Positions 37,821 to 40,211 of a stretch of 54,170 bases of DNA are shown piece by piece; position 1 is the stretch's first letter; the number at the start of each line of letters is the position of its first letter. Source of the DNA: Gammaproteobacteria bacterium. Its GTDB lineage: Bacteria > Pseudomonadota > Gammaproteobacteria > SZUA-152. Location of the stretch: the NCBI GenBank assembly GCA_021647505.1, contig JAKIUN010000020.1, positions 1 through 54,170 on the forward strand, given 5' to 3'. Under the pieces are notes generated by a model. It was not told the origin of the DNA and ran no database searches. It saw only the letters and a list, made by a program, of their open reading frames with translations. Both the position numbers and the translations under genes were made by a program.

Positions 37821-38669
37821 ATGAAAGACCCTGCTTCCATGTCATGGCCGGCTCCGGCCAAACTTAACCTGTTTTTGCATATCACCGGTCGCCGCATGGA
37901 TGGCTATCACGAGTTGCAGACCCTGTTTCAGTTCATCGACTTTGGCGACGAGTTGCGTTTTCGTGTCGATAGCAGTGGCGTGGTGCGGCGTCGCGAGGCG
38001 CTTGCCGGCGTGGCGGAAGAGGCAGACCTGACGGTGCGGGCAGCACGCCTTCTGCAGGCGGAAACCGGCTGTGCGCAGGGGGTGGAGATTCATATCGACA
38101 AGCGCCTGCCCATGGGTGGCGGTCTGGGTGGCGGCAGTTCCGATGCAGCCACTACCTTGGTGGTGCTCAACCGGCTGTGGGGCTTGGGGCTGTCGGAAGA
38201 CCGGCTTGCCGCGCTGGGGCTGCAACTGGGTGCCGATGTGCCCGTATTTGTGCACGGCCGTGCTGCCTGGGCCGAAGGGGTGGGTGAACGGTTGCAGTTC
38301 GTCGATTTACCGGAGCCTTGGTTTGTCATTTTGCAGCCCGATGCTCATGTCGCCACAGCAGAATTGTTCGTTAATCCGCAATTGACACGCGACCTTCAAC
38401 CTATCAAAATGCGCGATTACCTCGCCGGGGGTGGGCGGAATGTGTTCGAACCCCTGGTTCGGGCGGCTTATCCTGACGTCGATGCGGCGCTGGTGTGGTT
38501 GAATGCGCGCGCGGCGGGTCGCATGACAGGCACTGGCGCTTGTGTGTTTGCTACCTTTGAGCGCGAAGCGCAGGCGCGGGACGTGGCTGAGCAGGCCGAA
38601 GGCCGCTGGCGCGCAATTGTCGCGCGGGGTTGCAATCGTTCGCCGTTGTTGACGGCTTGCAGGGGCTAA
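37821..38669 (+). CDS. ispE: 4-diphosphocytidyl-2-C-methyl-D-erythritol kinase
   Basis: GHMP-family kinase of the MEP isoprenoid pathway. The 282-residue protein has APAKLNLFLHITGRR, the phosphate loop PMGGGLGGGSSDAA, and GADVPVFVHGRAAWAEGVGE, with MTGTGACVFATF near the C-terminus. It begins with MKDPASMSWPAPAK; a start at the second methionine is also possible. It lies in the conserved lolB-ispE-tRNA-Gln-prs order. The identification is secure. Confidence 0.96.
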   Translation: MKDPASMSWPAPAKLNLFLHITGRRMDGYHELQTLFQFIDFGDELRFRVDSSGVVRRREALAGVAEEADLTVRAARLLQAETGCAQGVEIHIDKRLPMGGGLGGGSSDAATTLVVLNRLWGLGLSEDRLAALGLQLGADVPVFVHGRAAWAEGVGERLQFVDLPEPWFVILQPDAHVATAELFVNPQLTRDLQPIKMRDYLAGGGRNVFEPLVRAAYPDVDAALVWLNARAAGRMTGTGACVFATFEREAQARDVAEQAEGRWRAIVARGCNRSPLLTACRG

Positions 38670-38784
38670 GCAGGTTTTTTAATCTCTGGGGGTTTAATTC
38701 CCCGCAGCTCGCCTCAAGCGCCTACTTTTGGTGCTGCGAATGTTACTCCAGCCTGGCTGCTGACACTGCTGAAGGAATAATTTT

Positions 38785-38809
38785 GTAGGGTGGGCATTGC
38801 CCACCCTAC
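38785..38809. repeat. Perfect 11-bp GTAGGGTGGGC palindrome after ispE
   Basis: GTAGGGTGGGC, ATT and GCCCACCCTAC form a perfect stem-loop. The same core is seen at 41601-41621, and a looser version at 1885-1910 and 48813-48827. A second 8-bp palindrome (TACCCCGC/GCGGGGTA) lies at 38863-38902. The rest of the 38670-38908 stretch has no convincing gene. Confidence 0.75.
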
Positions 38810-38908
38810 GAACGGCGTCGGTTTTTTGTTCGAGCGCCTAAGTGTTTGAACTGGCCGTGTAATACCCCGCTTTCGCGTAGCGAGATAGCTTGCTGCGGGG
38901 TAGTTTAT

Positions 38909-39049
38909 TGGGCCGTCGCCAAGCGGTAAGGCACTGGGTTTTGATCTCAGCATGCGCAGGTTCGACAAATTCGTCGGGAACGAATTTGGACGGCCGCAGG
39001 CCGGCCCCGAAGGGGTGAGGCGCAGGACGCGCCGAACAATCCTGCCGGG
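38909..39049 (+). pseudogene. tRNA-Gln copy interrupted in the T loop by a hairpin-rich insertion
   Basis: 38909-38965 is identical to the first 57 nt of the intact tRNA-Gln 170 bp downstream, up to TTCGA of the T loop. It is then broken by 73 nt (38966-39038), after which ATCCTGCCGG, the expected next bases of the tRNA, resume (39039-39048) and soon diverge so that the acceptor 3' strand and CCA are missing. It cannot form a functional tRNA. Confidence 0.8.
38966..39038. repeat. 73-nt palindromic insertion in the tRNA-Gln copy
   Basis: Four stem-loops follow one another: CAAATTCGT/ACGAATTTG, CGGCC/GGCCG, CCCC/GGGG around GAA, and GGCGC/GCGCC around AGGAC. A fifth perfect stem, AATCCTGCC/GGCAGGATT (39038-39046 and 39053-39061), starts at the resumed tRNA sequence. 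The unit has no coding capacity of its own. Confidence 0.75.
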
Positions 39050-39078
39050 GAAGGCAGGATTCGTTGCACAAAGTTTAA

Positions 39079-39153
39079 TGGGCCGTCGCCAAGCGGTAAG
39101 GCACTGGGTTTTGATCTCAGCATGCGCAGGTTCGAATCCTGCCGGCCCAGCCA
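39079..39153 (+). tRNA. tRNA-Gln (anticodon TTG)
   Basis: A 75-nt tRNA with acceptor TGGGCC/GGCCCA, anticodon stem CTGGG/CTCAG around TTTTGAT (TTG reads CAA/CAG glutamine codons), T arm GCAGGTTCGAATCCTGC and an encoded GCCA 3' end. It lies 105 bp before prs. The presence of GatCAB in the window is consistent with Glu-to-Gln conversion on this tRNA, although a GlnRS elsewhere cannot be ruled out. Confidence 0.96.
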
Positions 39154-39159
39154 TAATTC

Positions 39160-39235
39160 AGTGTTTAGTTTTTAGTGTGTGAGTGCTTAGTTGTTCGCGC
39201 TATCACTAAACATTGAGCACTCAACACTAAACACT
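39160..39235 (+). repeat. Hairpin related to the ACTAAAC array, upstream of prs
   Basis: AGTGTTTAG (39160-39168) pairs with CTAAACACT (39227-39235), and TGAGTGCT (39180-39187) with AGCACTCA (39216-39223). The words ACACTAAACACT and CACTAAAC are shared with the heptamer array before gatB. It sits between the tRNA-Gln 3' end and the prs ribosome site. Confidence 0.75.
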
Positions 39236-39257
39236 ATTATTTCTCCAGGGGTTTCGC

Positions 39258-40211
39258 GTGACTGACGGCAGCATGATGGTGTTCACCGGGAACGCCAATC
39301 CACAGCTCGCACGATCGGTGGTGAACTACCTTAGTCTGCCCATAGGGCGAGCCAATGTAGGTAAGTTCAGCGACGGTGAGGTCGCGGTGGAAATTATGGA
39401 AAATGTCCGTGGTCGGGATATTTTCGTGATGCAGCCCACTTGTTCGCCCACCAATGACAATCTGATGGAGCTGCTGGTAATGATCGATGCCTTGCGTCGT
39501 GCCTCGGCCTATCGTATTACCGCTGTCATTCCCTATTTCGGCTATTCGCGCCAGGATCGCCGCCCGCGCTCGGCGCGCGTGCCGCTGACCGCGCGGTTGG
39601 TGGCGGATATGATTACCACCGCCGGCGCCGACCGCGTGCTGACCGTGGATCTGCACGCCGATCAGGTACAGGGTTTCTTCGCCAGGCCGGTGGACAATAT
39701 TTACGCCTCGCCGATCTTGCTGGGCGACATCTGGCGCCAGGAATACCAGGAGCTGATGGTGGTGTCGCCGGACGTGGGCGGCGTGGTGCGCGCCCGTGCC
39801 CTGGCCAAGCGTCTCGACGATGCCGATCTGGCCATTATCGACAAGCGTCGCCCGCGTGCCAACGAGGCCAAGGTGATGAACATCATCGGTGATGTGGAAG
39901 GCCGCACCTGCGTGCTGGTGGACGACCTGGTCGATACCGCCGGCACCCTGTGCAAGGCCGCGCAAGCATTGAAAGATAGCGGCGCAGCGGGGGTGGTGGC
40001 CTACTGTACCCACCCCGTGCTGTCCGGCCCGGCGGTGGAAAACATCGAGGCTTCCGTGCTCGACGCGTTGGTGGTCACCGATACCATCCCGCTGAATGAA
40101 GAGGCCGCAGCCTGCGCACGTATCCGCCAACTCTCTATCGCTGAGCTGCTGGCCGAAACCATGCGCCGGGTCAGCAACGAGGAATCGGTCAGCTCGTTGT
40201 TCATGGATTAA
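39258..40211 (+). CDS. prs: Ribose-phosphate pyrophosphokinase
   Basis: Makes PRPP from ribose 5-phosphate and ATP. The 317-residue protein has the class I signatures: [15 protein letters not shown] near the start, [12 protein letters not shown], the metal-binding [12 protein letters not shown] and the PRPP loop [12 protein letters not shown]. The GTG start has AGGGG eight bases upstream; an ATG five codons on is an alternative. It is followed by a terminator and then rplY, and lies in the ispE-tRNA-prs-rplY-pth order. Confidence 0.96.

Follow-up and report, generated by a model that had tools for sequence, protein, structure and literature searches.

A TLR-related hairpin array in mirror arrangement between a partial and an intact tRNA-Gln in a gammaproteobacterial genome

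The tRNA-Gln locus and its hairpin array

The window analyzed here is a stretch of 54,170 nucleotides from a gammaproteobacterium of the SZUA-152 lineage (contig JAKIUN010000020.1, assembly GCA_021647505.1), in which an ORF at 37821-38669 that we take to be ispE is followed by a split copy of tRNA-Gln, a hairpin array, an intact tRNA-Gln(TTG), and an ORF at 39258-40211 that is presumably prs, all on the forward strand. Both ORFs were placed by the ORF list and synteny. The intact gene (39079-39153) was the sole tRNA called by ARAGORN at this locus, with an Rfam tRNA score of 61.4 bits. Its nt 1-58 region was found again at 38909-38965, where the split copy agreed with the intact gene at 57 of 57 positions and ended after TTCGA, that is, at A58 of the T loop, with hairpins following. 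Seven nucleotides common to the upstream sides of both tRNA sequences (AGTTTATT / AGTTTAAT; 38902-38908) belong to the same direct repeat, which comprised 64 nt (38902-38965 against 39072-39135) with 98% identity and a spacing of 170 bp. The original prediction had described a perfect copy of the initial 57 nt of tRNA-Gln, 170 bp 5′ of the intact gene and breaking into stem-loops after TTCGA, and both points were confirmed.

The array itself measured ~70 nt (38966 to ~39036), close to the 73 nt first proposed for the unit. Folded as RNA, 38966-39070 gave five hairpins with a free energy of -51.9 kcal/mol (z = -4.1), and no shuffled sequence was equally stable. H1 (38966-38988) has the loop CGGGA with GGA at 38977-38979, and its helix covaries across 142 distinct sequences; H2 (38991-39003), drawn from the fold, varies in length among relatives. 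H3 (39004-39016; CCCCGAAGGGG) has a GAA loop without GGA, while H4 (39019-39033) has the loop AGGAC with GGA at 39025-39027, both being supported by fold, covariation and loop counts. GGA is also present in the loop of H5 (39035-39065). We built a covariance model, R1, from 13 arrays, with no E. coli array among them. In an alignment of the 142 distinct sequences, 96.8% of cells were paired and compensatory changes occurred at all 19 of 19 modelled pairs; the covariation score was 0.565, compared with 0.154 after shuffling and below 0.09 when partners were slid, although the alignment was fitted to R1 and thus favours the modelled structure.

The split copy was also expected to resume the tRNA after the unit, and this did not hold. 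Only the 11 nt AATCCTGCCGG (39038-39048) match the tRNA 3′ part, as seen from the repeat search and the junction analysis, and they form H5 by pairing with GGCAGGATTC (39053-39062), an inverted copy of themselves; the rest of the acceptor strand and CCA are absent. We rejected the idea that the split copy is spliced into a tRNA, as it lacks CCA and most of its acceptor 3′ strand. A group I intron had been excluded at the outset, correctly: the break lies in the T loop rather than the anticodon loop, the array is ~70 nt long, and there was no Rfam group I match. Across the study region and 20 further loci, tRNA was the sole named Rfam family that reached its gathering score.

Other repeats surround the locus. 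A 60-bp repeat at 38850-38909 (AATACCCCGC...GCGGGGTAGTTTATT) adjoins the split copy on its 5′ side and has 18 other BLAST matches of varying length in the same genome, a longer form having ~15 additional bases. A near-perfect palindrome with a one-base loop lies at 38782-38812 (TTTGTAGGGTGGGCA/TGCCCACCCTACGAA), and the interval between tRNA-Gln and prs contains AT-rich imperfect inverted and direct repeats at 39157-39236 (AGTGTTTAGT...ACTAAACACT). A promoter and terminator scan of 38640-39270 returned no promoter-like site 5′ of the split copy and one promoter-like match, at 39213-39240, between tRNA-Gln and prs.

Relatives of the array and their junctions with tRNAs

R1 matched the RtT repeats of E. 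coli tyrT (E 1.5e-6 to 6.7e-5) and the tRNA-linked repeat (TLR) of E. coli rrnB, RrB (51 bits, E 5.5e-14). Since the model of the array matches both, the array is related to TLRs, and we regard it as very probably homologous to TLR arrays. In the reverse direction, the Rfam RtT model (RF00391) matched the array loci G038:C52, G045:C47, and G052:C27, while in 38650-39300 of the window it gave no match up to E=5 and did not reach its gathering score. The proposal that the insertion is of a new kind is accordingly not supported; the E. coli TLRs carry a homologous array, and those of tyrT have the same T-loop junction (PMC8144298).

A 170-nt query found its array part in many gammaproteobacterial genomes, and R1 matches were obtained in 185 of 370 gammaproteobacterial genomes at E<=1e-3 and in 47 of 150 genomes of a phylum sample. 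The original prediction had called for a search of this genome and its relatives, and would have been weakened by a lack of other genomic copies; this objection falls away because the genome has two more copies (L157, L158), each at a distance from any detected tRNA. T-loop copies beside tRNAs are found in many genomes. In other genomes, the array also occurs in tandem, with at least 5 copies of a 77-78 bp unit and no detected tRNA (G010, L062 318-682), inside a repeat bounded by terminal inverted repeats (CTAGGAGCCTGTCGGAC), possibly a MITE that carries the array (G014; L063, L064, L065), and in a sequence context common to two genera, away from detected tRNAs (L082, L087, L167; G133, G144).

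For 134 array matches, the two flanks were joined without the intervening array and compared to a nearby tRNA on the same strand. They rejoined the neighboring tRNA in 64 cases, 52 of them exactly after A58, which is 18 nt from the tRNA 3′ end. Junctions in the D loop (L165, L096, L059, L058) and in the anticodon loop (L099) were also observed, all of them after CGA or TGA. Among named genomes, which include Microbulbifer, Dyella, Rhodanobacter, Gilliamella, Kangiella, Alteromonadaceae and others, 57 of 92 pattern matches rejoined a tRNA, all 57 at 18 nt from the 3′ end; as R1 (through its GGTTCGA flank) and the search pattern both include GTTCGA, these figures overstate the preference for T loops among all arrays.

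The tRNA-linked units fell into two geometries. Type A, with the unit 3′ of the tRNA, accounted for 49/64 of the rejoined array matches and 49/57 of those in named genomes; its 3′ flank usually reaches the CCA end (18-19 nt) and its 5′ flank usually matches just 6-14 nt. E. coli TLRs have the same geometry, four such units being present at tyrT, and Dyella and Rhodanobacter also carry this type. Type B, with the unit 5′ of the tRNA, accounted for 15/64 and 8/57, and in its best-kept cases the 5′ flank matches the tRNA from nt 1 while the 3′ flank matches just ~9-14 nt. The study locus is of type B, and this mirror arrangement recurs at tRNAs for Arg (L081, L194), Ser (L083, L091, L214), Gln (L135), Lys (L179), and Tyr (L238); some other matches are partial, as at Val (L178). 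Full matches of the 5′ part were found over Gln, Arg, Ser, Lys, and Tyr (57/57, 59/59, 73/73, 71/71, 58/58, 68/68).

Both geometries occur between ispE and prs. Type B was found at the study locus, G337, L185, L191, G031 (contig covering the prs side only), and G020 (contig covering the ispE side only), in decayed form in G002, and type A in G012, G038, and G045. A unit at this orthologous locus recurs in families f1, f9, and f141 as well as at L185 and L191.

GGA loops and csrA

In the tRNA-linked set, GGA was present in 70 of 75 H1 loops and 70 of 74 H4 loops, far above its frequency in shuffled loops, and in 5 of 72 H3 loops, although these counts are inflated because R1 itself favors GGA. 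The motif was equally conserved in dispersed array copies, and is therefore not specific to tRNA leaders. Judged from the sequences, its conservation in H1 and H4 fits CsrA binding. csrA was found in the study genome, and GGA in hairpin loops, as in RrB, is present in its array in the three hairpins given above.

A plain-loop subtype exists too, represented by the E. coli tyrT TLRs and most RtT-model matches in csrA-positive genomes. The csrA-negative genome G470 (L289-L318) had 52 array matches (E<=0.01) with mostly plain H1 loops and few GGA, and the csrA-positive G410 kept its GGA loops. Plain loops like those of G470 were seen in G254, G271, G367, and G518. However, the loops of csrA-positive sisters sampled in like manner (G213, G178 with a diverged csrA, G103, G419, and G444) were largely plain as well; the comparison thus failed its control, and we do not use it as support. 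Over 370 genomes, 172 had both array and csrA, 13 the array only, 152 csrA only, and 33 neither (Fisher p 0.0025, with genomes counted without phylogenetic correction).

RrB binds CsrA in vitro, and when three GGA motifs were changed the shift was gone in the tested range; deletion of RrA/B/F in E. coli had modest effects only (PMC8144298). Reasoning from its homology to RrB, we tentatively suggest that the leader at the study locus could bind CsrA, a step we hold with less than even confidence.

Origin of the arrangement and comparison with known repeats

The most likely origin is a tandem duplication whose junction carries the array. The duplication would have started just 5′ of tRNA-Gln and ended at T-loop nt 58, with the four-hairpin module placed at the junction, so that one tRNA-Gln would remain intact and the front unit would keep the tRNA 5′ part only. 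Split and intact tRNA-Gln bodies were identical (57/57) within each of three genomes from three families, whereas between those genomes the bodies agreed at 49-52/57 positions, the 5-8 differences being carried in step by split and intact copies. In G031, 39 nt of the sequence upstream of the tRNA are repeated too. This within-genome identity and the repeated upstream sequence argue for a tandem duplication with later recombination between the repeats, and the identity of the split 5′ body is probably due to such recombination rather than to a function of its own.

In the main rival to tandem duplication, the array would be a mobile hairpin element with a preference for inserting in tRNA loops, after CGA and before A, with duplication of the adjacent tRNA half so that one tRNA stays intact. 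The CGA or TGA junctions in three different tRNA loops, most of them exactly at A58, would suit such an element, as would the dispersed copies in many genomes, two of them in the study genome, and the CGA that precedes 10 of 29 dispersed copies; on the other hand, the GGTTCGA flank in R1 favored T-loop copies in sampling, and no linked transposase or integrase was met in an inspection that was not systematic. Inverted repeats around the dispersed copies were weak at best, the longest flanking inverted match averaging 5.21 nt compared with 4.91 nt in shuffled sequence, and 14 of 300 shuffles reached the observed mean. General insertion of the dispersed copies into hairpin loops was thus not convincing. 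We consider a mobile element of this kind unlikely, at roughly one chance in four. A palindromic element in the T loop had also been the original prediction, and of this the recurrence of the unit in T-loop copies beside tRNAs stands, but active targeting of the T loop was not borne out, because junctions in D and anticodon loops occur and the dispersed copies show no clear placement in hairpin loops; nor is it needed, because tandem duplication accounts for the geometry.

Equally doubtful is a neutral relic, in which the tRNA 5′ part was duplicated in tandem and a dispersed repeat came to lie at the junction, the whole being functionless. G002, a member of the same genus, has a decayed unit, with parts of H1-H3 lost and a diverged body, next to an intact tRNA-Gln, and several relatives of the same family lack the unit between ispE and prs, as would suit a relic. 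Against it, compensatory changes have occurred across relatives at every modelled pair, the same orthologous locus is occupied in f1, f9, f141, L185, and L191, and GGA is conserved in the loops far over the shuffled expectation. The T loop is a known class of crossover site for tyrosine integrases, and the junction in it is precise, but an attachment-site scar of an integrative element using tRNA-Gln is very improbable, given that the copies, spaced 170 bp apart, enclose neither an integrase nor an island, that the array recurs at many tRNA isotypes and at D-loop and anticodon-loop junctions, and that its structure is conserved and RNA-like.

Returning to tandem duplication, the product of the locus is likely a pre-tRNA leader RNA with CsrA-type GGA loops. 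The array would be transcribed within the 5′ leader of the pre-tRNA, a cut by RNase P at the intact tRNA would free the array-bearing leader, and its GGA-loop hairpins, of the RrB type, could hold CsrA; the supply of leader would then follow tRNA-Gln transcription. Taken together, a TLR-related mirror array at a tandem-duplication junction, acting as a leader RNA that would hold CsrA, is the explanation we favor with somewhat better than even confidence, the duplication, leader and CsrA steps being its conjectural part. A broader model, which we consider unlikely, is that the module has repeatedly lodged in tRNA loops (mostly T, also D and anticodon) across Gammaproteobacteria, with one tRNA half duplicated on either side while the tRNA survives, leaders and trailers thereby becoming CsrA-binding RNAs. 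If true, it would tie the global regulator CsrA to tRNA synthesis.

These data place the array in about half of the gammaproteobacterial genomes sampled and also elsewhere in the phylum, and they show a near-fixed A58 junction, a mirror class in which the tRNA 5′ part is repeated, and within-genome homogenization of that part. The many natural variants, including some in culturable genera, offer material for asking whether tRNA-linked RNAs act on CsrA. For annotation, split tRNA copies of the mirror type should not be mistaken for intron-containing tRNAs.

In a literature search that covered few subscription texts, the closest reports on T-loop insertions or tRNA pseudogene repeats were PMC8144298 and PMC4986893. 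TLRs have been known since 1978, mainly from E. coli, and RtT also from Pasteurellaceae, their function being unsettled (PMC8144298, PMC4986893); E. coli has 22 TLRs at ten loci, for which no function had been recognized before PMC8144298. In Actinobacillus pleuropneumoniae, RtT relatives lie 5′ of tRNAs (PMC4986893), and these may include the mirror type.

Among less close systems, AaHKsRNA22 (RF02902) of Aggregatibacter has the same hairpin layout, although its match (19.4 bits, E 0.35) was below the gathering score. REP and REPIN sequences, a class defined by mobilization through the TnpA-REP (RAYT) transposase, are likewise short, hairpin-forming and dispersed; the study array differs in that it consists of four distinct hairpins with conserved order and loops, and its tRNA-linked copies have tRNA-matched flanks. 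With TLR/RtT (RF00391) the array shares its homologous hairpins, a T-loop break directly after GGTTCGA, linkage to a tRNA on the same strand, here 36 bp 5′ of tRNA-Gln and putatively within a tRNA operon, a tRNA 3′ segment in inverted copy, and a frequent tandem occurrence. Classical TLRs, however, follow a tRNA and close with the last 18-19 nt of that tRNA, CCA included, whereas the study unit has an intact tRNA on its 3′ side and none immediately 5′, and carries nt 1-58 plus the 11 nt of the 3′ part. As it departs from the strict TLR definition in this way and has no RtT-model match, we term it a mirror-image relative of TLRs, which is not itself a strict TLR. Its GGA loops also set it apart from the plain loops of the E. 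coli tyrT arrays. Of RrA/RrB/RrF, the TLR family members of E. coli rRNA operons, RrB has GGA in its H1 and H4 loops (CCGGGAG, CAGGACG), and its H4 loop CAGGACG recurs unchanged in the study unit; RrB, however, follows 5S rRNA, with a terminator on either side, and carries the 5S 3′ end, while the study unit would be part of a tRNA leader.
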